Below are positions 7,081-26,597 of a stretch of 64,000 nucleotides of DNA, piece by piece. Within the stretch, counting starts at the first letter, position 1. Each line of letters begins with the position of its first letter. Under the pieces are notes generated by a model, which did no database searches, was not told where the DNA came from, and saw only the letters and a list, made by a program, of their open reading frames with translations. A program made the translations under genes and the position numbers. Source of the stretch: Sediminimonas qiaohouensis DSM 21189. GTDB taxonomy: Bacteria; Pseudomonadota; Alphaproteobacteria; Rhodobacterales; Rhodobacteraceae. Where the stretch lies: contig NZ_AUIJ01000001.1 of the NCBI RefSeq assembly GCF_000423645.1, positions 124,001 through 188,000 of the forward strand. Reading direction: 5' to 3'.

Positions 7081-10000
7081 TCAGGCGCTTAGCGCTTTTG
7101 CATGCGCGTCGGATTCCGCGGCCAGAAGTGCGGCGTTGCCCCCCGCGGCGGTTGTGTCGATGCAGATGTGCCGTTCCAGCCGGCAGCGCGCGGCCAAATC
7201 GTCGGGGCCACAAGCCAGCCCGACGATTGCGCCCTCGCGCACGGCTAGGGCCTGGCTCGCGGCGCGGGTGTCGGCCTCGTCAGACCAGAGCGCGACCACA
7301 TCGACGCCCGTCAGCCGCGACAGCGCATCACGCGGCAGCACGCCGTCGATGCAATCGACGCCCGAGATACCCGGCGCGACCGACAGGGTGCGGCAGCCGT
7401 TTTGCTGTGCGATGCGGGCCTGCTCGGCGGCGTCCTCGACGGTGGGGCCAAGGCACAGAACTGTGCCGCGCCCGACTATCGACAGGCGATTCGATTCCCC
7501 CGTCGGGCCGGGCAGTTCCTGCGCATCGAGGCTGGCAAGTGGTTGCTGCGACAGCGAACTTAGCCGCGCCTGCACCTGATCGACAGAGGCATCCGCGCCC
7601 GATGGCGCCTCGTGCGCGACGCGGGTTTGCTGTGCGAATCGCGGCACGTAGGACGGGCCGCCCGCCTTGGGGCCGGTGCCCGACAGGCCCTCGCCGCCAA
7701 ACGGCTGGCTGCCGACAATGGCGCCGATCTGGTTGCGGTTGACGTAGGCGTTGCCGACACGCAGGCGCGATGTGACCTGTTCGACCCGGCCATCGATGCG
7801 GGTGTGCAGACCAAAGGTCAGGCCATAGCCGGTGCCGTTGACGGCATCCACGACGGCGTCGATCTGATCGGCGCGGAAGGTTGCGAGGTGCAACACGGGG
7901 CCGAAAATCTCGCGCTCCAAGTCGGCGATACCGTCCACGCGGATCACGGCGGGGCCGAAGAAATGCCCGCCCTCCGGCGCGTCGAGTTGCTTGATCAGGC
8001 GCCCTTCCTTGGCGGCCTGCGCGACGTAATCGTCGAAATCGGCCTTGGCGGTGCCGTCGATCAGCGGGCCGACATCGGTGGCAAAGGACCACGGATCACC
8101 GAGGCGCAACTCGTCCATCGCGCCGAACAGCATCTTGAGGAAGCCATCGGCGACGTCCTCTTGCAGATAAAGGCACCGTAGGGCCGAGCACCGTTGCCCC
8201 GCCGATTGGAAGCTGGAGGCGATGATATCGCGCACCGCCTGTTCCGGCAAGGCGGTGCTGTCCACGATCATGGCGTTGAGGCCGCCCGTTTCGGCGATCA
8301 TCAGCGCCTCGGGCGACAGGCCCTCGGCCATGGTGCGGTTGATGCGCTGCGCCGTCCCGGTAGAGCCGGTAAAGCAGACCCCCGACACGCGCGAATCGCC
8401 GGTCAGGGCCGGGCCAACGTCGCGCCCGTGCCCAGGCACCAGTTGCAGCACGTCGCGCGGAACGCCGGCCTGGTGCATCAGTTGCACGGCGCGGTGCGCC
8501 AGCAGGCCGGTGGGCTCGGCCGGTTTCGCCAAAACCGCGTTGCCCGCCGACAGAGCCGCCGCGATCTGGCCGGTGAAGATGGCCAGCGGGAAGTTCCACG
8601 GCGAGATGCAACTGATGGTGCCGCGCGGCCCGGCGCTCAATTCCTGCCCGCGAGCGGCATAGTAGCGCATGAAATCCACCGCCTCGCGCAGCTCGGCCAC
8701 CGCATCGAGGGGGGTCTTGCCGGCCTCGCGCCCGAGGATGGCGAAGATCTCGCCGAAATGTTCCTCGTAAAGGTCAGCGGCACGGTTCAGGATCGCGGCG
8801 CGTTGATCGGCGGGGGCCTGCCAGACGCGGGCATCCTCAAGCGCGCGCTCAAGATCGTCGGGGGCGCAGAGCGTCAGCTCGCCCACCGGCTCGTTCGTGT
8901 TGGCCGGGTTGGTCACGGACAGAACCTCGCCGCCCGTCACGTCGCCGGCGATCAGCGGCCCGCCCTGCCACAGGTGCGGAGGGGCAAAGGCGGCGCGGGC
9001 GTCTTCGATGCGGGCGATATCGCGCACCTCGTGCAGGTCGAACCCCTTGGAATTCGGTCGCTCCGGCTCATAAAGCGCGACCGGGTCCACCACCGCATCA
9101 GAGCGCTGCCCGGCTGGACCGTCCAGCGCATCGAACGGGTCGGCGGCCACAACCTCGGGCGGCACGTCCTCATCGACGATCTGGTTGACGAAGCTGCTGT
9201 TGGCGCCGTTTTCCAGAAGGCGCCGCACCAGATAAGCCAGCAGATCGCGATGCGCGCCCACGGGGGCATAAATGCGGCAGCGGGTATCGCCGTCCTTCAT
9301 CACCACGTCATAGAGCGTCTCGCCCATGCCATGCAGGCGCTGGAACTCGAACAGCGACCGATCGGGCGCCATCTCAAGGATCGCGGCGACGGTATGGGCG
9401 TTGTGGGTGGCGAATTGCGGATAGATCCGATCGGTCATCGCCAGCAGCTTGCTGGCGCAGGACAGGTAGGACACGTCCGTCGCGGCCTTGCGGGTGAACA
9501 CGGGGAACACCTCGACGCCTTCGACCTGGGCACGCTTGATCTCGGTATCCCAGTAGGCGCCCTTGACGAGGCGCACCATGATGCGGCGGTCCAACTCGTC
9601 CGCCAGCGCATGCAGCCAATCCAACACCGGCGCCGCGCGGGTGCCATAGGCCTGCACCACCACGCCAAAGCCGTCCCAGCCCGCCAAATCGGGGCTGCGC
9701 AGCACCTCTTCAATCACATCGAGCGACAATTCAAGGCGATCCGCCTCTTCGGCGTCGATGTTAAGGCCCATGCCAGCGTCGCGCGCCATGCGCGCCAGTT
9801 CCAGCGTGCGGGGCACCAGTTCGGCCATCACGCGGTCGCGCTGCCCCTCCTCATAGCGGGGATGCAGCGCGCTGAGCTTGATCGAGATGCCGGGGTTGTT
9901 GCGGATGTCGGAGGAGGTGCATTGCGCCGCCAGCTTCTGAATCGCGTCGGCATAGGCCTTGTGATAGGTGTTGGCGTCTGCGGCGGTCAGGGCCGCCTCG

Positions 10001-18441: not shown

Positions 18442-18457
18442 AAAAAAGGCGCGAAAC
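18442..18457 (-). terminator. Left half of an intrinsic terminator split by the Mu-like element
   Basis: Removing the element and one copy of the target duplication rejoins GGCGC-GAAAC-GCGCC preceded by six A. Read on the minus strand this is a GGCGCG stem, TTT loop, CGCGCC stem and six T, a textbook rho-independent terminator for leftward transcription (from the dnaE direction). The other half lies at 26409-26418. In the present arrangement the hairpin is broken. Confidence 0.65.
18453..18457 (+). repeat. Target-site duplication, left copy (GAAAC)
   Basis: The five bases immediately outside the left TG terminus are GAAAC, identical and in the same orientation as the five bases outside the right CA terminus at 26409-26413. 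Five base pairs is the duplication length made by Mu transposase. Confidence 0.9.
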
Positions 18458-18464
18458 TGACGGC

Positions 18465-18479
18465 TTTCAGCGGGTTTGA
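18465..18479 (+). repeat. Left-end transposase site L1
   Basis: TTTCAGCGGGTTTGA, seven bases inside the TG terminus. It matches the right-end motif (TTTCACCGGGTTTGA read inward) at 14 of 15 positions. It is inferred to be the MuA-type binding site next to the cleavage point. Confidence 0.8.
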
Positions 18480-18529
18480 GCCAGTTGAAAAATTTTTCAT
18501 ATACTTTTCAGGTAGTTAATCTGGGACGA

Positions 18530-18544
18530 TTTCACGGGGTTTGA
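18530..18544 (+). repeat. Left-end transposase site L2
   Basis: TTTCACGGGGTTTGA, same orientation as L1 and starting 65 bases after it. The shared GAGCC(A/G)GT continuation extends the similarity to about 22 bases. A spaced L1/L2 pair mirrors the left end of phage Mu. Confidence 0.8.
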
Positions 18545-18664
18545 GCCGGTGCGTGCGCCTATCGCCCTCTGGTGACAGTTGACACGGAAGTTTGCAGAAA
18601 AAAATCCAATGAAATCAAGCGCTCGCTTTCTAAGGTGTGGGGAGATTTGCCCACACCCCACAGC

Positions 18665-19177
18665 TTATTTGGGCAGTCGCCATTCGGGGGTTGTTGAGAA
18701 TGCACCCGAAGTATTCAGTCTGCGGATATCCCTCTCAAGCGAAGCCTGTGGGTCTGCGAGGTCTTCGTAGATCGCGGTGGACAGGGCGGTGTGCAGCGGT
18801 TGTTCGTACGCTGCCAGATCGCGCTGACAAAAGTCCTGCAATATCCAAATGTCGGGCGCGGCCAGCCCCGAGAAATAGGTCAACGTCTCGACGTAGTTGC
18901 TCAGATTAGCTTTCTCCTTCATTATCCGCGAAAAGCGGAAGAGCGCGAGATCGAATGCAGCCTTTTCATGCTCGCTCCACTTGATCGGCGAAACACCTAC
19001 CGTCGAGCTGGAAGAGCCTTCCAAGATGCCCTGATACCGCACTGGGATGCTATCCCGCGCCTTCCAAGAAGAGATCGTGCTCTTGTCTACGCGCAGCTTG
19101 CGCGCCAGATCGGCATCCGTTTCCACACCGAAGTGCCGTTTCAAAGCTGCAAGGACTTCCTCAACCGGGCGTTCCAC
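18665..19177 (-). CDS. Phage repressor, CI-like helix-turn-helix protein (Mu c position)
   Basis: A 170-aa protein. The N-terminal HTH reads FGVETDADLARKLRVDKSTISSWKARDSIPVRY, as in the phage CI repressor HTH family. The remainder (about residues 60-170) is helical with no recognised domain. It starts with GTG at 19177, preceded by AGAGG. It diverges from the Ner-like and transposase genes with a 51-base gap containing a palindrome, so it is expected to silence the early operon, as c does in Mu. A GGTGTGGG/CCCACACC stem at 18634-18657, just beyond its stop, could end its transcript. Confidence 0.8.
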   Translation of the reverse strand: MERPVEEVLAALKRHFGVETDADLARKLRVDKSTISSWKARDSIPVRYQGILEGSSSSTVGVSPIKWSEHEKAAFDLALFRFSRIMKEKANLSNYVETLTYFSGLAAPDIWILQDFCQRDLAAYEQPLHTALSTAIYEDLADPQASLERDIRRLNTSGAFSTTPEWRLPK

Positions 19178-19188
19178 ACCAGTACCTC

Positions 19189-19217
19189 TTGACTGCGTTA
19201 TGCGGTTGGCATAGTTT
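19189..19217 (+). promoter_or_regulatory. Candidate early promoter of the Mu-like element
   Basis: TTGACT at 19189-19194 is followed after 17 bases by TAGTTT at 19212-19217, a plausible -35/-10 pair reading into the Ner-like gene. The -10 lies inside the palindrome at 19209-19232, so a protein bound there would block it. Confidence 0.45.
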
Positions 19218-19232
19218 GCATGTAAACTATGC
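19209..19232. promoter_or_regulatory. 24-bp palindromic operator between repressor and Ner-like gene
   Basis: The half-sites GCATAGTTT and AAACTATGC flank a short centre; 11 of 12 base pairs of the symmetric 24-mer match, with one mismatched pair near the centre. It lies exactly between the divergent repressor and Ner-like genes and overlaps the predicted -10 and the first possible ATG of the Ner-like gene. It is the obvious candidate operator for either regulator. Confidence 0.75.
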
Positions 19233-19453
19233 AGGCCGCAGAGATGATAGACCTATCGCATACACCATCGCCCGAATTATTGAAAGCCGTCCGCGCAGCT
19301 CTGCTGCTCAGGGATCAATCGCTTACGGGGTGGGCACGCGCCAACGGGGTCAAGCGTCAGAACCTCTGCAAGGCGCTCACCGGTCAGTGGACTGGACCCA
19401 GAGCGGGCGCGATTGTGAAGCAGGTGCGCGCCGATCTGAAGGTTGAACACTGA
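19229..19453 (+). CDS. Ner-like small DNA-binding protein
   Basis: A 74-aa protein with one predicted HTH (SLTGWARANGVKRQNLCKALTGQWTGP). Position between the c-type repressor and transposase, size and HTH fit Mu Ner, which represses early transcription to steer the lytic/lysogenic choice. The first ATG (19229) lies inside the operator palindrome. An in-frame ATG at 19244 (MIDLSHTPSP) would give a more usual leader from the predicted promoter, and neither has a strong ribosome site. Its stop overlaps the transposase start (TGATG). Sequence identity to Ner itself is not evident. Confidence 0.7.
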   Translation: MQAAEMIDLSHTPSPELLKAVRAALLLRDQSLTGWARANGVKRQNLCKALTGQWTGPRAGAIVKQVRADLKVEH

Positions 19454-21399
19454 TGTTGGTCGCGGTCAGATCGCTGCAAGGGGTCGGGAAGATCCCATGC
19501 GACCGTACATCAGCCTCAAAATGGCTTGCGCGCAAAGGGGTCCCGATACTTAGCCAGTGCGGCAACGGTGGTACGTTCGATGCTGTTCGCACATCTGACC
19601 TACCTGACGAAGAGCGTCTCGCTTTCCATCGGAAGCGTATTTCGGAGCTTCACCTTTGCCCAGGCACCTACGACGATGATGCCCATGACGTGTTCATGCA
19701 GGCGTCCCCGTCGCGGCGGGCAAGGGCTGAACGCAAGGCCGCTATTGCGCAGCTTCTGGTGTCGTTGGGGACTTCGGTCGGTTGGCCTGAGCGTATCCGG
19801 CTGGTGCAGGAGAAATTCGGGGATGAAGGCACCTCGAAACCCTCCTTGAAACGGCTTTTAAGCGCGGTCGAAGGGGCCGATCCGATCAACTATGCGCCCG
19901 CGCTGCTGGACGGCTACAAGGCGACGGCAAGGCATGCGGAGATGAGCGAAGACGCGTGGCGTTTTTTCATGACGACAATCCGCGATGCAGGCCCGGATTT
20001 TCCGCTAAAGTCGGCGTGGCGCGACACTCGGGATGCTGGTCGGTTCTTGGGGTGGTTGGTCCCGTCATACCCCACGTTTTATCGTCGCTGGGAGGCATTG
20101 AGCGAAGCTGAGCGCCTACACGCGCGGTATGGGCGCGATGCGACACATACCCGCCTAGTGCAACCTTCGCACCGCGACAAGAGCAGTCTTCCGCCCCTTG
20201 CTTGGGTTTCGCTGGACGGGCGAGTGCAGGACTTCTGGGTTGATTTCGGAGACGGCAAGCCGGTGCGTCCTGTCATGCTGGCCCTTGTCGATGTGGGTTC
20301 CAACATCGTTCTGGGGTGGGAGCTGGCCCCCTCCGAGAACGCCGCGCGAACGGTGCGGCTCATCAAGAATGTCTGTCAACGACATGGCATCTTCGACCGA
20401 CTATACACCGATAACGGATCTGCCTTCGCGGGCCACCTCGTTGCTGGCGGCAACGTGCATAGGTTCAGGAACGGGCGAAAAAAGGCCGAAGGCGTGCAAC
20501 CCCCCGGTATTTGTCAGATCATGGGTATCGACCTGACCTTCGCCCTACCCAAGAATGCCCAAGCGAAGATCGCCGAGCGAACTTTCGCCGTGCTTTCCCG
20601 CGTGATTGATGACAGACCGGAATTCAAGGGGTGCCACGCGGGCCATGCCCCTGGGGCCACCCCGACGCCGGGCGTGAATCCGGTGCCTGTCGAAGTCGCG
20701 CAATCCGTGATTAGGCGAGAAATTCAACGCCACAATCAGGAGCCTGGGCGGCGCAGTCAAGGAGCGCGCGGTCGGTCCTACGAACAGGTATTCAATGATG
20801 GGCTACAAGATCGCATCAAGCGGCAACCTACGGCGCGGCAGCTCTATCTTGCGGGCCTGATCTATAGCCCCGTGTCAGTCGATAGGTTCGGCCAGGTTCG
20901 CAAGAACGGCTGGATTTACGGTGGCCCTTCCACGCAACAGGCAATGCTGGAGCACCACGGCACGGGTAGGAAAATCCTGTTGGGCCGTGATCCTGACGAT
21001 TTCAGCGCACCGGCCATCGCGTTTGACGAAGACGGGCGCTTGATCTGCGAGAACATCGAGCCGGTGCAGTCGGGTTCGTATGGAAGCGTTGACGGCATTC
21101 GTGATGCGGCGCGTAACCGGAAGGCGGCTCGGGCCGCAGTCGCCGCCGCCGAGACGGCGAACAACTATTTGGATGACGCACAATTCGCGAACGCTCTGGC
21201 CGCCTTGGATCAGAGCGTGGCGTCGCCCGAGGAGCCGGACCGCCCTGCGCAGAGAGTGGTTGCGGGGCATTTCGGATCGCCCCTCACGGACGCGCCCGCC
21301 GCCGAGGAAACCGCCGACGAAGCTATCCCGGCTGAGTTTTACAGGAACATGGATACCGCGCTTGCGGCCAAGCGGTCGCGGGGCGGGAAGTCGGCATGA
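19453..21399 (+). CDS. MuA-type DDE transposase
   Basis: A 648-aa protein, close to the 663 aa of phage Mu A. The catalytic core is readable: first aspartate in WVSLDGRVQDF (residue about 254), second in YTDNGSAFAGH (about 320), glutamate in KIAERTFAVL (about 375). The spacing is very like the D269/D336/E392 triad of MuA. The N-terminus (VRSLQGVGKIPCDRTSASKWLARKG) resembles the Mu-type DNA-binding region that contacts end sites. A C-terminal region rich in alanine and acidic residues could contact MuB. It would carry out strand transfer using the 18465/18530 and 26364/26387 sites. The reading frame is intact. Confidence 0.93.
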   Translation: MLVAVRSLQGVGKIPCDRTSASKWLARKGVPILSQCGNGGTFDAVRTSDLPDEERLAFHRKRISELHLCPGTYDDDAHDVFMQASPSRRARAERKAAIAQLLVSLGTSVGWPERIRLVQEKFGDEGTSKPSLKRLLSAVEGADPINYAPALLDGYKATARHAEMSEDAWRFFMTTIRDAGPDFPLKSAWRDTRDAGRFLGWLVPSYPTFYRRWEALSEAERLHARYGRDATHTRLVQPSHRDKSSLPPLAWVSLDGRVQDFWVDFGDGKPVRPVMLALVDVGSNIVLGWELAPSENAARTVRLIKNVCQRHGIFDRLYTDNGSAFAGHLVAGGNVHRFRNGRKKAEGVQPPGICQIMGIDLTFALPKNAQAKIAERTFAVLSRVIDDRPEFKGCHAGHAPGATPTPGVNPVPVEVAQSVIRREIQRHNQEPGRRSQGARGRSYEQVFNDGLQDRIKRQPTARQLYLAGLIYSPVSVDRFGQVRKNGWIYGGPSTQQAMLEHHGTGRKILLGRDPDDFSAPAIAFDEDGRLICENIEPVQSGSYGSVDGIRDAARNRKAARAAVAAAETANNYLDDAQFANALAALDQSVASPEEPDRPAQRVVAGHFGSPLTDAPAAEETADEAIPAEFYRNMDTALAAKRSRGGKSA

Positions 21400-21467
21400 G
21401 AGGCGCTGAACCACCTCTCATGCCATTCACCGGGGGCGAATAACCCCCACAACGAACGGAGCAATGA

Positions 21468-22244
21468 ATGACACAGCATTTGAGACTTGCCAAGACCAGC
21501 GATGCCAGGCGGCGTCTGGGCGACTGGGCCGACACTGAAACCGCCCGCGACATTATCCGATCCCTCGATCTGGTCTATGAGACGGATCGCCCGTCCATGA
21601 CGATGATCGCTGGCGCGCCTGGTGTAGGAAAAACCAGGGCGATCAGGCGTTTTTGCGAGCGGATCGGCCATGACGGCATCTATATTCAGGCTGCCAGCGG
21701 TGAAGGAACCGCATGGAACTTCGCTCACTCCCTGGGCAACCTCTGGGGGCACGCCAAGCCCCAATTTTCCTGCCATACTGAGGCTCGCCAGGAAATCGCA
21801 CGCTACATCGGCACGGGGCGCGTGTTGATCGTTGATGAGGCGCAGTACCTCAATCAGCGCAACAAGAAGACCGGGCAAGTTGGTGAGGCGTTCGAGTGGC
21901 TTCGCGCCGCCGCTGAGGCTGGTGAATTCAAGTTGGTGTTTTGCGGCGATATGAGCCTCGCGCCCGCTATAGACAGCATGCCGCAGCTCCAAAGCCGAAT
22001 GATGCGCCCCGTCATCATTCCTTCGGCGCGCAGGGTGGATGTGGCCGGTATCGTTAAGGGTACGCCCTTCGACAATGAGGCGTCAATCGACGCGCTACAC
22101 GCCGTCGCGCGCCTGAAGGGCGGTTTGCGTAACGTCGAAAACGTCACGAGGATTGCCCTACTTTTCGCAGGGTCTGAGCACCCGCGCGCGGAGCACCTCA
22201 AGGCAGCCATCCATGACATGAAACTCGCACCGAAGGGGCGCTAA
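21468..22244 (+). CDS. MuB-like AAA+ ATPase, target-DNA selector
   Basis: A 258-aa protein with Walker A in MIAGAPGVGKTRAI (residues about 47-60) and Walker B in VLIVDEAQYLNQRN (about residue 125), followed by a sensor region FCGDMSLAP. It follows the MuA-type transposase, as B does in Mu and as TniB/IstB-like ATPases do in related elements. It would bind target DNA, stimulate the transposase and confer immunity on sites near the ends. Mu B is 312 aa, so this is a shorter form. A ribosome site (GGAG) precedes the ATG. The 68-base gap after muA holds a small GGGGG/CCCCC hairpin. Confidence 0.88.
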   Translation: MTQHLRLAKTSDARRRLGDWADTETARDIIRSLDLVYETDRPSMTMIAGAPGVGKTRAIRRFCERIGHDGIYIQAASGEGTAWNFAHSLGNLWGHAKPQFSCHTEARQEIARYIGTGRVLIVDEAQYLNQRNKKTGQVGEAFEWLRAAAEAGEFKLVFCGDMSLAPAIDSMPQLQSRMMRPVIIPSARRVDVAGIVKGTPFDNEASIDALHAVARLKGGLRNVENVTRIALLFAGSEHPRAEHLKAAIHDMKLAPKGR

Positions 22245-22246
22245 GT

Positions 22247-22552
22247 ATGAAGACGGTATACGTGAAACTCAAGGACGATGAAGCGGCGCTGATGATCGAC
22301 GGGACGCCTGTAGAATTCATGGAACTCAAGCGCGCAATGGCTGATCTGGAAGGCATGCTTGAAGCGCTGGGGGATGCGAGTGCTCTGGCCGCGTTTCAGG
22401 CCATTGGTGAAATGGTCGCGCGCGCCCGAGTGGTGAACTGTGAGCCGCTTGATCCCGACCGCTCGGGCGAACGCGGCAACTCGCATGGGGCCGAAAGCAA
22501 CGGCCCTCAGCGACATTTCCGAAACACGCGGCAAGGGGAATTCGACGCATGA
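22247..22552 (+). CDS. Hypothetical early-region protein of the Mu-like element
   Basis: A 101-aa protein starting 3 bases after the muB-like stop. The N-terminal 65 residues are mixed alpha/beta (VKLKDDEAALMIDGTPVEF, then a helix MELKRAMADLEGMLEAL). The C-terminal third is polar and low in structure. There is no recognisable family. It lies in the semi-essential early region of Mu-like phages and ends in an ATGA overlap with the next gene, so it is part of the same transcript. Confidence 0.6.
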   Translation: MKTVYVKLKDDEAALMIDGTPVEFMELKRAMADLEGMLEALGDASALAAFQAIGEMVARARVVNCEPLDPDRSGERGNSHGAESNGPQRHFRNTRQGEFDA

Positions 22553-22917
22553 AACAGATGGAAACGGACCGCGAATTCAAGACGAGAATGGCCGCAGAAG
22601 GGAAGGCCATCTACACCCCCGGCAAGACGGTCGAGCAGGTCAAGGCCGATCTTCGTGGGGAAAAACTGACCCTTGAAATCCACGAAGGCGACTTGAAACA
22701 GATGCGTGAAGATGCGCAGGAAGTCGAGGGCACGCTTTTCTGTATCAGCCAAGCGGCGGAGTACCTGTCCAGGACCGCAACCGAACAATGCCCTGGCATG
22801 GGCGCTGTCTTGGAACTTCTGGGCCGCGCCACCAACCTTGACGCCGCCCCCTGCGCTTCCCGGCTGATTGCCGCGCTTCGCAACCTAGACGCCGTCGAGA
22901 AAAAGGGGCGGTCATGA
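22549..22917 (+). CDS. Hypothetical early-region protein of the Mu-like element
   Basis: A 122-aa protein with a charged N-terminal half (EFKTRMAAEGKAIYTPGKTVEQVKADLRGE) and a more helical C-terminal half with five cysteines and several alanine runs. There is no signal peptide or membrane segment. It is coupled at both ends by ATGA overlaps, to the 101-aa gene upstream and to the GemA gene downstream. I do not recognise a family. Confidence 0.6.
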   Translation: MKQMETDREFKTRMAAEGKAIYTPGKTVEQVKADLRGEKLTLEIHEGDLKQMREDAQEVEGTLFCISQAAEYLSRTATEQCPGMGAVLELLGRATNLDAAPCASRLIAALRNLDAVEKKGRS

Positions 22918-23324
22918 CCATCACGCGCAATCAGATCGCCCTTCTGCATGTTGCCAAGGGCAAGCTCGGCCTCAAGGACGCTGAGTATCGAACGGCGCTT
23001 GTCCACATCTGCGGTGTGACAAGCTCGACCGAGCTGGATCAGTACGGCTTCGAGGCGCTTTTGGGGTTCTTCGAACACCTGGGCTTCAAGCCCCTCTCGT
23101 CTCGCGGTTCGGACTACGGTGCGCGCCCTGGCATGGCGAGTTTCGCGCAGCTCGAATTGATCCGGGCGCTGTGGCGCGAATACACGGAAGGCCGTGCCGG
23201 GGAAGACGAACTGAACAAATGGCTTGAGCGATGCTGGAAGGTTTCGAGTCTTCGGTTCGTGCGCGCCGAAACTGCCCCCAAGATCATCACGGCGCTGAAG
23301 TCGATGAAGGCGCGGGCGGCATGA
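22914..23324 (+). CDS. GemA / Mu gp16-family regulatory protein
   Basis: A 136-aa protein with the gp16/GemA (DUF1018) pattern: the opening ITRNQIALLHVAKGKLGLKDAEYRTAL, followed by SFAQLELIRALWREY and a C-terminal RFVRAETAPKIITALK. In Mu, GemA modulates host gene expression and DNA supercoiling, and it sits at the end of the early operon, as here. A strong intrinsic terminator follows within 35 bases, closing the early transcript. Confidence 0.8.
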   Translation: MTITRNQIALLHVAKGKLGLKDAEYRTALVHICGVTSSTELDQYGFEALLGFFEHLGFKPLSSRGSDYGARPGMASFAQLELIRALWREYTEGRAGEDELNKWLERCWKVSSLRFVRAETAPKIITALKSMKARAA

Positions 23325-23357
23325 GATAGCCGGGGGTTTCAGCCTTGTCCCTCGGCT

Positions 23358-23401
23358 GGAAGGGGCGGCGGTTTGCAGGTCCGTCGCCCCTTCCGCTTTT
23401 T
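23358..23401 (+). terminator. Rho-independent terminator of the early operon
   Basis: The 14-bp stem GGAAGGGGCGGCGG / CCGTCGCCCCTTCC has one mismatch and a 9-base loop. It is followed by GC and five T. It lies 33 bases after the GemA stop. Confidence 0.85.
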
Positions 23402-23628
23402 CAGAGCGCCTGAGCGGCCCGTACAGCGCCGTTGATCGCTTTGGCCCCCATTTCCCGCAAATGGTCGGCATGGCTATTAAATGGGTATTTAACGGCGCTC
23501 TGCGAGCCTACCGCGCCCGACAGGCGGGAAACCCTTGCGCAAACGGCCCGAATTTGTGACTGTCTGAGAAACGGTCTGGTGCCTCGCGTGGAACCTGCGC
23601 CTCGAATTCTTTCTAGGCCGAAAGACAT
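23401..23628 (-). CDS. Possible small minus-strand gene inside the Mu-like element
   Basis: A 75-aa open frame opposite to the element's other middle genes. The last 50 residues (starting QIRAVCARVSRLSGAVGS and ending in alanine-rich MGAKAINGAVRAAQAL) look protein-like and use GC-rich third positions. The first 24 do not, so the true start may be internal. Its stop abuts the T-run of the early terminator, an arrangement expected for a convergent gene. The alternative is that the 328-base stretch 23325-23652 is simply a promoter region for the Mor-like gene. No family is recognised. Confidence 0.35.
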   Translation of the reverse strand: MSFGLERIRGAGSTRGTRPFLRQSQIRAVCARVSRLSGAVGSQSAVKYPFNSHADHLREMGAKAINGAVRAAQAL

Positions 23629-23652
23629 TCAGGGTTGCGCTAGAACGAGCGC

Positions 23653-24096
23653 ATGACCGGAACGCCGCCCCGAGACCTTCCAGCACCGACTTGCTCCGAG
23701 GCATACGCCATCGGCGTTTACATCCCACCGCACTTGCTTTCTATCGAGCGGACGGTCGGAGTGGAGCCGTTGCGTGCATTTCTGGAAGAATGGGGCGGTC
23801 GGGAATTCGGTATCCCCACCACTGTCACAGCGGACACGCCGCATACCGAGGTTGTCGATGCCTTGCGGGCGCAATTTGGACCGGGGCGCTTCACGATTGC
23901 CGTTGGGCCGCTGGGGTCGAATGTGCGGGTCGCCTGGTCTGTCTACCTGGGCCTCAAGAACGGCATGTCTCTGGCCGATATTGCCAGGCAATGCGGCTGT
24001 CACGCCCGGACAGTTTCCGGGCACAAAAAGCGCCTGATGGATCGCGGCCTTTTGAGCGCGACCGAGGCTTCCACCCCGAAAGGAACTGCGAAATGA
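23653..24096 (+). CDS. Mor-like transcriptional activator
   Basis: A 147-aa protein with a central strand-rich part (GGREFGIPTT, GRFTIAVGPLGS) and a C-terminal HTH (YLGLKNGMSLADIARQCGCHARTVSGHKKRL). In Mu, Mor is made from the middle region after the early terminator and switches on later genes. Size, position (after GemA and a terminator, before head genes) and HTH placement fit, though the match is by architecture rather than strong motif identity. Its stop overlaps the head gene start as ATGA. Confidence 0.6.
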   Translation: MTGTPPRDLPAPTCSEAYAIGVYIPPHLLSIERTVGVEPLRAFLEEWGGREFGIPTTVTADTPHTEVVDALRAQFGPGRFTIAVGPLGSNVRVAWSVYLGLKNGMSLADIARQCGCHARTVSGHKKRLMDRGLLSATEASTPKGTAK

Positions 24097-24989
24097 TCGT
24101 GAATGCGGAAAGTATCGAGCTGGCCTTCAAGGGCTTCAAGACGGTGTACACCGACGCCTACGAGGCGGCAACGGCATATTCTGGCCAGATCGCGATGACG
24201 GTGCCAAGCTCTTCGCGCGATGAAACCTACGGGTGGCTCGGGCAGTTTCCGCAGCTTCGCGAGTGGCTTGGGGGCGACCGGGTTGTCAAAGACCTTCAGG
24301 CCCACAGCTTCGCGATCACCAACCGGAAATTCGAAAGCACGGTTGGCGTCAGCCGCGATGACTTCGAGGATGACAGGCTGGGCATTTTCAAGCCCATGTT
24401 CGCGGAGATGGGCCACCTCGCGAAGTTGCACCCCGACGAGCTGGTGTTCGGCCTCCTGAAGGACGGCTTCACCACGACCTGTTTCGACGGGCAGTACTTC
24501 TTCGACATCGACCACCCGACAAAGGACGCGACCGGTGCGGATGTGACCGTGAGCAATATGGCCGACGGCACCGAGACACCCTGGTATCTTCTGGACACCT
24601 CGCGCGCTATCAAACCGATGGTGTTCCAAGAGCGGAGCAAGTACGATTTCCAGGCGGTCACGGCACCGAGCGACCACACTGTGTTCATGACCGATCAGCA
24701 CCTCTACGGTGTTCGGGCGCGGGTGAACGCCGGACTTGGGTTGTGGCATATGGCTTTCGGCTCGAAGCAGGCGCTGACTGCGGCAAACTACGCCGCCGCG
24801 CGCGCAGCCATGCAGGAATTCCGGGGCGACAGTGGGCGCGTTCTGGGCATCAAGCCGACCGTCATGGTTGTGCCGCCGTCGCTTGAAGACGCCGCGATGC
24901 ACGTGCTCAACACCGAAACCAACGACGGCGGCGGCTCGAACCCTTGGAAGGGCACCTGCGACCTGATCGTAACGCCGTTCGTGGCATGA
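24093..24989 (+). CDS. Mu T-family major head subunit
   Basis: A 298-aa protein, close to the ~305 aa of Mu gpT. The T family's central block is present: WYLLDTSRAIKPMVFQERSK, then VFMTDQHLYGVRARVNAGLGLWHMAFGSK. Further family features are FFDIDHPTKD and the C-terminal GSNPWKGTCDLIVTPF. It forms the icosahedral capsid shell. The whole length is present with no frameshift. It is coupled by ATGA to the Mor-like gene before it and the protease gene after it. In Mu the protease/scaffold gene precedes T; here it follows. Confidence 0.92.
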   Translation: MIVNAESIELAFKGFKTVYTDAYEAATAYSGQIAMTVPSSSRDETYGWLGQFPQLREWLGGDRVVKDLQAHSFAITNRKFESTVGVSRDDFEDDRLGIFKPMFAEMGHLAKLHPDELVFGLLKDGFTTTCFDGQYFFDIDHPTKDATGADVTVSNMADGTETPWYLLDTSRAIKPMVFQERSKYDFQAVTAPSDHTVFMTDQHLYGVRARVNAGLGLWHMAFGSKQALTAANYAAARAAMQEFRGDSGRVLGIKPTVMVVPPSLEDAAMHVLNTETNDGGGSNPWKGTCDLIVTPFVA

Positions 24990-25894
24990 CGGATCAGCCG
25001 ATCATATCGCTTTGTGAGGGAGCGCCCCTGGCCGAGGGGCGCGCACCCGATCTGGTCCATCTTCTTCCTTTAGGGGAAATCAAGGGGCGGGATGGTCGGC
25101 GCTGGACCCTCTCCGACGCAAACGCGCTGGTGCGCGCTTCGATGCGCGAGGGGGTTGATCTGGTTATCGACTATGAGCACCAGGTTGACGACCCAGATCA
25201 GCGTACGCCCGGCCCGGTGCCTGCCGCCGGGTGGGTTCGTGACCTTACGGTGAAGTCCGATGGTATCTGGGGTCGCGTGGTATGGACGCAGAAGGCGCGT
25301 AACATGATCGAGGCGCGTGAATACCGCTACCTCAGCCCGGTCATCACGCACCGTCGCGACGGTCAGATCATCCGCCTCAAGGGGGCAAGTCTCGTACATC
25401 GTCCCAATCTCGAACTCACCGCCCTGTCACGTCAGGAGGAAACCATGCCCGAACTTGAAAACGACATTGGCCGCATCGCTACTGCGCTCGACCTGCCCGA
25501 GGATGCCGGAACCGATCAAATTCTTGACGCCATCCGGGCTTTGTCCCAAGAGCCTGACCCGAGCCGATATGTGCCGGTGGCGGCGGTCCAGGAGATGCTC
25601 CGCGACCGCGCATCGCTTCAATCCGAACTTGGCGAGCAACATGTCGAGCGCCGTGTAGACGAGGCCACGGCAGGCGGGTACATCACGCCGGGCATGCGCG
25701 ACTGGGCCGTGTCTCTTTGCAGACGCGACCCGGATGCCTTCGAAGACTTTCTATCCACCACGCCGCCCGCCTTCGCGCACCTTTCGCGTGACACTGCGGC
25801 CGGTCAATTGCCGACCAAGCGCGTGGCCGCGCGCAGCGACGTAACCGAAAGCATCTGTGCACAACTGGGTATCTCTCCCGATGCGCTCGACTGA
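24986..25894 (+). CDS. Mu I-type head maturation protease with scaffold C-terminus
   Basis: A 302-aa protein. Residues about 1-150 are the Mu I-type prohead protease: WTLSDANALVRASMREGVDLVIDYEHQ (probable catalytic histidine), PAAGWVRDL, EAREYRYLSPVI (probable serine) and LTALSRQEE at the domain end. The C-terminal half is helical and charged, like the scaffold (Z) part of Mu I. An internal ribosome site and ATG at 25445 would produce the scaffold alone. The start is the ATG overlapping the T stop. The protease would process the prohead assembled around the scaffold. Confidence 0.85.
   Translation: MTDQPIISLCEGAPLAEGRAPDLVHLLPLGEIKGRDGRRWTLSDANALVRASMREGVDLVIDYEHQVDDPDQRTPGPVPAAGWVRDLTVKSDGIWGRVVWTQKARNMIEAREYRYLSPVITHRRDGQIIRLKGASLVHRPNLELTALSRQEETMPELENDIGRIATALDLPEDAGTDQILDAIRALSQEPDPSRYVPVAAVQEMLRDRASLQSELGEQHVERRVDEATAGGYITPGMRDWAVSLCRRDPDAFEDFLSTTPPAFAHLSRDTAAGQLPTKRVAARSDVTESICAQLGISPDALD
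25445..25894 (+). CDS. Internal-start scaffold protein (Mu Z-like), nested in the protease gene
   Basis: AGGAGG at 25435-25440 lies four bases before an in-frame ATG at 25445, giving a 149-aa product (MPELENDIGRIATALDLP...). The site falls exactly at the junction between the protease domain and the scaffold region. In phage Mu, Z is made in this way from within I. Expression as a separate protein is inferred. Confidence 0.65.
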   Translation: MPELENDIGRIATALDLPEDAGTDQILDAIRALSQEPDPSRYVPVAAVQEMLRDRASLQSELGEQHVERRVDEATAGGYITPGMRDWAVSLCRRDPDAFEDFLSTTPPAFAHLSRDTAAGQLPTKRVAARSDVTESICAQLGISPDALD

Positions 25895-26336
25895 CCAGCC
25901 AGCGTCGGACCGCGAAATTGCTCTCGCGGATCAGCTACGCCAGGCGAAGGAGCAAATCGACAGTGCGAACCGCCTGTTTGACGAGGGCTTAAACGCCGTT
26001 TCAATGGCGCGTGAAACGGTTGCCGAATGCGCGCGGCTGGCGTCCGATCAGTCTCTTTCGGAGGGTGTGCTGGCGTCAGCGCCTGTTACGGAGCACCGCC
26101 GTCTACGCCGCTCGGGGTGCCCTCCGAAAATCGACCAAGACCCCGCGTTGCAAACCTTCATTCTGGCGCGGCTCGACCGCCTGACATACCAGGAAATTGC
26201 CGATGAAATCGCGGCGGCTTTCCCCGAGGATCGGCGTGTGAGCAAGAGCACCGTTCACGCTTGGCACAAGCGCCGCCGAAAAGCCCCAAGGTTCACGCGG
26301 TCACGCCGGTCTCGCCAAGTGGATCATCCGGGATAG
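25881..26336 (+). CDS. Helix-turn-helix protein at the right end of the Mu-like element
   Basis: 151 aa from the ATG at 25881, or 159 aa from a GTG at 25857; both overlap the protease gene. The N-terminus is coiled-coil-like (REIALADQLRQAKEQIDSANRLFDEGL). A C-terminal HTH reads FILARLDRLTYQEIADEIAAAF, then RRVSKSTVHAWHKRRRKA, and ends in a basic tail. The layout (HTH with the SKSTVHAW recognition helix) is reminiscent of Mu-type small terminase subunits, but it could equally be a regulator. No large terminase is present. It is the last gene before the right end (72 bases remain). Confidence 0.6.
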   Translation: MRSTDQPASDREIALADQLRQAKEQIDSANRLFDEGLNAVSMARETVAECARLASDQSLSEGVLASAPVTEHRRLRRSGCPPKIDQDPALQTFILARLDRLTYQEIADEIAAAFPEDRRVSKSTVHAWHKRRRKAPRFTRSRRSRQVDHPG

Positions 26337-26363
26337 CCCCGGTACACCCGCCCACTTCCGGGT

Positions 26364-26378
26364 TCAAACCCGGTGAAA
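26364..26378 (-). repeat. Right-end transposase site R2
   Basis: TCAAACCCGGTGAAA on the plus strand, i.e. TTTCACCGGGTTTGA read inward from the right end. It is identical to R1 and starts 23 bases from it, about two helical turns, as for the adjacent R1-R2 sites of Mu. Confidence 0.8.
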
Positions 26379-26386
26379 CGGGGGTA

Positions 26387-26401
26387 TCAAACCCGGTGAA
26401 A
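26387..26401 (-). repeat. Right-end transposase site R1
   Basis: The same 15-mer as R2, with its outer edge seven bases from the CA terminus at 26407-26408. This is the same offset as L1 from the TG terminus. Confidence 0.82.
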
Positions 26402-26408
26402 ACTAACA

Positions 26409-26413
26409 GAAAC
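26409..26413 (+). repeat. Target-site duplication, right copy (GAAAC)
   Basis: Direct repeat of 18453-18457, immediately outside the right terminus. The next bases, GCGCC, are the right half of the interrupted terminator stem. The remaining 184 bases to slyX contain GC-rich sequence and presumably the slyX promoter; no gene is seen there. Confidence 0.9.
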
Positions 26414-26597
26414 GCGCCGCCGCGCAGCACCCGACCGCCCCCCCCCTCGGGCGGGGAACTGCGCGGCTCTTCAGGCGGGCGCGTGCCTGATTGCTCTTGC
26501 TTTTCGGCGCTCTGCAACCCAGTTTCACGGCACTGGGAGTTGGCATCGCTGTCGCCCCGGCGGTAAAGATCATATTCCGGCGAAAAATGGAATTTGC

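Follow-up and report, generated by a model that had tools for sequence, protein, structure and literature searches.

The window analysed here is a stretch of 64,000 nucleotides from the genome of Sediminimonas qiaohouensis DSM 21189, and it contains a Mu-like element of 7,951 bp with the late genes T, I and H at its end. The termini of the element are of the TG...CA type: the left end (18458-18557, forward strand) opens with TGACGGCTTTCAGCGGGTTTGA and bears two MuA-type sites (18465-18482 and 18530-18547), and the right end (26361-26408, reverse strand) shows the inverted counterpart of these first bases together with two MuA-type sites in inverse orientation (26361-26378 and 26384-26401). Both flanks carry a perfect 5-bp target-site duplication, GAAAC, at 18453-18457 and 26409-26413, and the GC content inside the element is mostly 59-63%, against 65-72% in most of the adjacent kilobases. 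An earlier note on this DNA had described a capsid cargo at 24093-26336; the late genes reported there are real, but the element is bigger, and its ends and duplication place it at 18458-26408. Moreover, the site is empty in both other genomes of the genus, the flanks lying 125 bp apart in one (G394) and about 660 bp apart in the other (G354), where the element is absent; therefore the insertion is young and occurred in intergenic DNA. The case of close relatives carrying the full phage at the same site, which the note had held to speak against a satellite, is thus not what these congeners present.

The genes of the element are arranged in the order repressor, ner, A, B, o1, o2, GemA, Mor/C-type activator, T, I and H, with the repressor alone on the reverse strand. 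The early part comprises a phage CI-type repressor (18665-19177, reverse; PF07022, E 4e-6), and on the forward strand a Ner-like HTH regulator (19229-19453; phrog_15281/925), the MuA transposase (19453-21399; phrog_310, E 1.4e-77, with PF02914 DDE_2 and PF09039), whose DDE_2 domain is the sole one in the genome, the MuB ATPase (21468-22244; PF13401 and PF09077), two small ORFs, o1 and o2 (22247-22917), of which o2 is present in part of the relatives, and GemA (22914-23324; PF06252, E 5.6e-25). The late part, likewise on the forward strand, begins with a Mor/C-type late transcriptional activator (23653-24096; phrog_836, E 1.8e-8), followed by T, the major head protein (24093-24989; phrog_371, E 7e-116), I, the head maturation protease with its scaffold region (24986-25894; phrog_328 / PF10123, E 1e-70), and H (25881-26336), a predicted DNA-binding protein of small-terminase-like character with a helix and a C-terminal HTH. 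Within I, a GGAGG followed by an in-frame ATG at codon 154 marks a probable internal scaffold start (Z, 25445-25894, forward), and a similar SD-like stretch with ATG lies 146-162 residues before the end of I in the related loci L035, L036, L038, L044 and L048. The stop of the activator gene and the start of T share ATGA at 24093, the stop of T and the start of I share ATGA at 24986, and the start of H at 25881 overlaps the end of I at 25894 by 14 bp. The start methionine of T is invariant in A2, and I has motifs common to Mu and Rhodovulum phage RS1. The full-length head protein, the full-length protease with a scaffold start and the undamaged, coupled genes of the earlier description are all borne out by these profile matches and by the junctions read in the sequence.

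The design is not confined to this genome. A search with T in 394 family genomes gave a match in 77, and 40 stretches of up to 20 kb around T matches were read and sorted into two kinds, namely full Mu-like prophages, in which I precedes T and T is 43-48% identical to that of the window, and short elements, in which T precedes I and is followed by H, T being 52-75% identical. Elements of the short design, with repressor, ner, A, B, GemA, activator, T, I and H, are found again and again in Rhodobacterales and in metagenomes; among the named carriers are Maritimibacter fusiformis, Roseovarius dicentrarchi, Primorskyibacter aestuariivivens, Ruegeria sp. PrR005 and Rhodobacter capsulatus SP108. 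A search for ends on 22 loci, the window and 21 others, revealed an exact 5-bp duplication with MuA-type ends outside repressor and H in 10 of them (the window and 9 of the 21), where the ends of L051 are weak and fourth by score and those of L035 second by score. These type-1 elements measure 7,951-8,892 bp, apart from one whose A gene has an insertion and which reaches 10,815 bp, and in all ten the ORF on the repressor side stops 194-263 bp from the left end. The remaining loci are decayed, cut by contig ends or without duplication, L046 and L040 for example having end-like sites but no matching 5-mers. A second end search bounded 5 of 37 loci, giving 15 bounded elements in all. Furthermore, the genome and IMG/VR collections were each scanned once and yielded 80 loci apiece; in 45 of the 160, T precedes I and no TerL, portal, F or sheath is present.

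In a T tree built by a quick method from 123 out of 192 rows (without duplicates or decayed copies and with only some of the full phages), 51 rows form one group with an SH-aLRT of 98, and all of them are of the short kind (48 with T before I, and three in which I was not detected). The 53 rows with the T-I order require 6 changes on this tree, against 40 when shuffled, and no INPHARED phage has a T closer than 48%. The NG86 estimates of dN/dS between sufficiently close copies range from 0.06 to 0.33 in 18 of 21 pairs for T and from 0.10 to 0.23 in 10 of 12 pairs for I, the near-identical pairs (three and two, respectively) being set aside; these values are similar to those of GemA, and the pairs are formed by other copies of the family, as the copy in the window has no relative close enough. 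Among the family copies compared, T and I are under purifying selection. Two of the checks proposed in the earlier note, a search for the same short gene set in related genomes and dN/dS of T and I, have come out in favour of a satellite, the former with a gene set that is bounded by duplications and conserved in many genomes, the latter for close copies other than that in the window. A recurrent, transposable lineage of elements with a capsid module is almost certainly real, and at the level of sequence our analysis demonstrates the mobility of the unit, its gene content, its conserved lineage and the purifying selection on the capsid pair.

As for what the elements are missing, 56 phage proteins of RS1 and Mu were used as queries against the 15 duplication-bounded elements. 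No match to TerL, portal, F, endolysin or head-tail adaptor was obtained in any of the 15, and none to the tape measure in the element of the window, whereas the same queries found TerL, portal, F and adaptor in all three full Mu-like prophages of the family that served as positive control, and endolysin and tape measure in two of the three each. Tube and sheath also gave no match in the 15 elements, a result that is uncontrolled, as the Mu queries matched none of the three full prophages either. Accordingly, the claim of a capsid and protease without portal or large terminase stands, and that of absent tails stands as far as tape measure and adaptor are concerned, tube and sheath having been sought with queries that lack a positive control. 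All 15 bounded elements are thus missing genes required for making infectious particles alone, as is characteristic of phage satellites. With Mu and RS1 the element has in common the repressor, Ner, A, B, GemA, the Mor/C-type activator and the T and I families, and with Mu-like phages in general MuA and MuB, the TG...CA ends and the 5-bp duplication. However, it does not have the complete head, packaging, lysis and tail set of such phages, it amounts to 8 kb against 37-40 kb, genes for TerL, portal, F, lysis and tail were not found in it, and it differs further in having T before I (the reverse of Mu), an extra gene H, and a T clade apart.

The rest of the late region shows a certain variety across the family. 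All ten type-1 elements have a Mor/C-type activator, its gene lying either before T or between I and H. In the window, L038, L044 and L052 it was recognised by its PHROG, in L041, L048 and L051 through BLAST with phage C, and in L035, L036 and L053 through BLAST with the C of the window. Some elements also bear extra genes, namely a decoration-type head protein in L041 (phrog_1731), the neck/tail-completion protein G of Mu in L053 (phrog_26) and L048 (BLAST), and an unassigned cargo gene in L052, and a block in the order T, Dec, I, G, H is present in other loci.

Protein H merits separate attention. A search with a profile of H gave 39 rows, of which L037 accounts for two; they place the protein downstream of T in 34 loci and, as a weak match, in another 4. 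Moreover, 33 aligned H proteins share the C-terminal pattern G-x-P-x-K-I-D-x-D-P-E-L...F-P-P-x-R-R-V-x-x-S-x-I-H-x-W-W. When compared by hhalign with 25 Mu-type small terminases, H gave a probability of 80% and an E of 1.4e-5 over 59 columns, against control values of 0.1% for H with the Mor/C family and 9.5% for Mor/C with the small terminases; the alignment covers the N-terminal part of the terminase, and in H the matching domain is at the opposite end of the protein. Moreover, phrog_426 (terminase small subunit) is matched by 10 of the 33 H proteins at E up to 0.1, the best being 0.0024. Both comparisons relate the HTH of H to the Mu-type small terminases, in keeping with the earlier suggestion of an HTH protein that could be a small terminase, and the HTH is conserved. 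An AlphaFold2 model of H consists of one long helix and a three-helix HTH with a mean pLDDT of 86, and the small terminases of G20c (Z 6.2) and P74-26 (Z 5.6) are in the top six when its fold is compared with solved structures, in a Z range that is common for generic HTH domains. A fold search of BFVD returned 88 matches, none at E<=0.001, and a sequence search of the PDB returned seven rows of E 0.17-7.7, mostly coiled-coil proteins, which we take as chance. Altogether H is probably a small-terminase-like specificity factor, for which ring assembly and binding to pac and TerL would be expected.

Several relatives depart from the type-1 design. In the bounded element of Rhodovulum marinum (L102), A, B, GemA, T and H are accompanied by a tape measure, and I was not detected; two elements in Rhizobium (L111, L120) and one in a Rhodospirillales MAG (L122) have T, I and a tape measure without a recognisable transposase; and in Pleomorphomonas koreensis (L108) I precedes T, again with a tape measure and no recognisable transposase. 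The tape measures of these five belong to PF10145 or PF06791. A lone MuA N-terminal DNA-binding domain (PF02316) is found in three of the four transposase-less elements, and L111 has a ParB_N protein. MuA is present in 5 of the 10 genomes asked, one being the L102 element itself and the others the genomes of L111, L120, L122 and L097, where it lies elsewhere, and is not found in the genome of L108. For L122, the left end differs from that of a resident Mu-like prophage, itself cut by a contig end, by 3 mismatches in 26 positions and can be aligned with it over 46 bp (80%, E 5e-4); the lone DNA-binding protein of the element is similar to the N-terminus of the MuA of that prophage (E 7e-8). The genomes of L111 and L120 show no end common to element and Mu-like prophage, so that ends match in one of three such genomes.

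Now we consider where a helper could be. The Mu portal (PF06074) occurs in 7 of 20 carriers of short elements and in 44 of the 374 other family genomes (odds ratio 4.0, p 0.008), a comparison that ignores kinship and counts as carriers genomes with decayed or cut copies only (G346, G178, G066, G293). Restricted to well-assembled genomes the counts are 7 of 19 and 40 of 327; if G298, left out because its I precedes T, is added to the whole sample, they are 8 of 21 and 43 of 373. This co-occurrence fits a Mu-like helper, although 13 of the 20 carriers are without a Mu portal. The genome of the window, a 3.55-Mb draft in 67 contigs, contains neither the Mu portal PF06074 nor TerL_ATPase PF03354, a domain which alone does not cover all terminases (the TerL of an element on contig C8, for example, belongs to another family), and it has a single MuA gene, so that no Mu helper was found in this genome. 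The helper that the earlier note had proposed to look for is thus reflected in the portal being commoner among carriers, but not in the host itself; G354, a congener, carries a full Mu-like prophage elsewhere in its genome. An end common to a type-1 element and a full phage was not seen in any of 17 loci, the best case having 4 mismatches over 19 fixed positions.

The satellites known so far rely for the most part on site-specific recombination for integration and on capsids that they steal or replace. The cf-PICIs integrate by an integrase at an att site, which is not so for our element, having instead MuA and MuB with a 5-bp duplication. As described in the available text of one paper (PMC10690885), cf-PICIs produce their own heads, portal and motor but use borrowed tails; the element resembles them in its own major capsid protein and head protease and, judging from its genes alone, in needing a helper for tails, but cf-PICIs also encode portal, head-tail connectors, large and small terminase and HNH, and in the element portal, connectors and large terminase are absent. 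The same text describes the Streptomyces satellites MulchRoom and MiniFlayer, which likewise have capsid genes and no tail genes of their own but carry TerS, TerL, portal and scaffold, MulchRoom with a tyrosine integrase, and SaPIs, some of which bring their own TerS and so redirect packaging, as proposed for H, but which use the capsid protein of the helper where the element encodes its own (PMC10690885). The accessible part of a review of helper-dependent elements lists P4-like, PICI, cfPICI, PLE, PICMI, VEIME and tycheposon families with no mention of "Mu-like" or "phage Mu" (PMC11389934), that of a survey of Rhodobacteraceae prophages does not mention "satellite" (PMC8224337), and another helper-satellite pair is described in Pseudomonas (PMC4936722, in part). 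No description of a Mu-type satellite was found in titles and abstract openings, with subscription papers and preprint servers outside that scope.

Since the elements have shell genes of their own without portal, motor or tail, and since this design recurs, they are therefore probably hitch-hiking satellites. We consider it quite likely from the genes that the family is a transposable, capsid-encoding phage satellite using the portal, motor and tail of a Mu-like helper, and the satellite reading of the earlier note gains support from the recurrence, the purifying selection and the empty congener sites. Also in its favour are the small-terminase match of H, the extra virion parts of relatives, the co-occurrence with the Mu portal and the left end that L122 has in common with the prophage of its genome; against it speak the want of a Mu portal in the genome of the window and in 13 of 20 carriers, the shortness of the H match and its different place in the protein, the generic HTH range of the fold matches of H, and the unmatched ends in the genomes of L111 and L120. 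Under such a scenario the element would lie dormant under its own repressor, and on induction its own A and B would multiply it by replicative transposition; T, I and H would then be turned on by the Mor/C-type activator, T and I would assemble proheads of the element itself, and H would recognise the element DNA and bring the large terminase of the helper to it, while a co-resident or infecting Mu-like phage would provide portal, motor, tail and lysis. The optional genes of the relatives (decoration, neck protein G, tape measure) might be further parts that replace those of the helper, and the transposase-less relatives would borrow its MuA as well. In a wider form, to which we give a little better than an even chance, these would be Alphaproteobacterial transposable satellites forming hybrid virions. 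They would contribute a head of T and I, sometimes with decoration, and through H the specificity of packaging, certain branches adding a neck protein or a tape measure, and would borrow no more than the portal, the motor and the rest of the tail; one branch without transposase would keep only the MuA DNA-binding domain and helper-like ends, and so depend on a single Mu helper for replication as well as for particles.

A capsid protein without a portal may also have a role other than DNA packaging. Unlikely as it seems on balance, a Mu-like transposon could retain T, I and H in order to spoil, by decoy heads and a competing small terminase, the assembly or packaging of a Mu-like phage that infects the cell, the host being protected and the transposon itself unpackaged. 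Such interference would agree with a T that is 43-48% identical to those of the full Mu-like phages of the family and could co-assemble with them, with the want of a portal or motor, and with a transposition that is independent of packaging; however, the conserved protease with its scaffold start and the decoration, neck and tape-measure genes of the relatives point to particle building, spread between species needs a vehicle, and the transposase-less relatives require a helper anyway. Ordinary decay of a full Mu-like prophage by loss of the genes from portal to tail, which the earlier note held to be simpler, is very improbable in spite of the decayed copies that exist (G066, G346, G178) and of an ancestor that surely was a full Mu-like phage. 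As an account of the family it is ruled out by the same short design with intact ends and duplications at ten independent sites, by a T-I order opposite to that of the full phages seen, by the single T clade, and by the purifying selection and the empty congener sites. Still less probable is a domesticated shell on a transposon, either an encapsulin-like compartment or a part of a gene-transfer agent, for though T is of the Mu head family and the portal is absent, the maturation protease with scaffold, the late activator and the small-terminase-like H are retained, no cargo enzyme recurs, and the distribution is patchy with target-site duplications. Least probable of all is an autonomous minimal virus whose portal and motor have diverged beyond recognition, for which o1, o2 and a few small ORFs are without assignment, but no unassigned sense-strand ORF of the window element comes near the size of the TerL (about 550 aa) or portal (about 500 aa) of Mu and RS1.

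If the satellite reading holds, portal and motor can be common to heads from two genomes, and the relatives with their own tape measure could show what a satellite gains from resetting tail length or injection. Moreover, if headful packaging in the manner of Mu starts in an 8-kb element, each particle would contain host DNA, and the satellite would be a natural transducing agent.

Four bounded relatives of the short element, two in Rhizobium (L111 and L120), one in a Rhodospirillales MAG (L122) and one in Pleomorphomonas koreensis (L108), have Mu-type ends, a length of 8.1-9.5 kb and genes for capsid, protease and tape measure; no transposase was found in any of these elements. Three of them carry a lone MuA DNA-binding domain and one a ParB_N protein. 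In the L052 locus, a cargo gene matching phrog_17296 lies at the right end, behind the small-terminase-like H (element positions 8083-8820), and is possibly an accessory gene. In another Rhodobacteraceae genome, G066, the short element is present in several copies, all of them decayed (L065-L069); in some of these a GemA fragment lies within T, the major head gene.

In the window, the insertion is adjoined by a short GC-rich sequence (26420-26468), which is present at many places in its own genome and in congeners and by its look is REP-like. The same genome has a second capsid element without tails (L267, contig C8, about 98-113 kb), comprising a primase/helicase, TerL (phrog_15), portal (phrog_21), a protease-major head fusion (phrog_4523) and head decoration (phrog_122), with no tail matches among the ORFs after the last of these; it looks like a capsid-forming satellite of the cf-PICI (capsid-forming PICI) kind.
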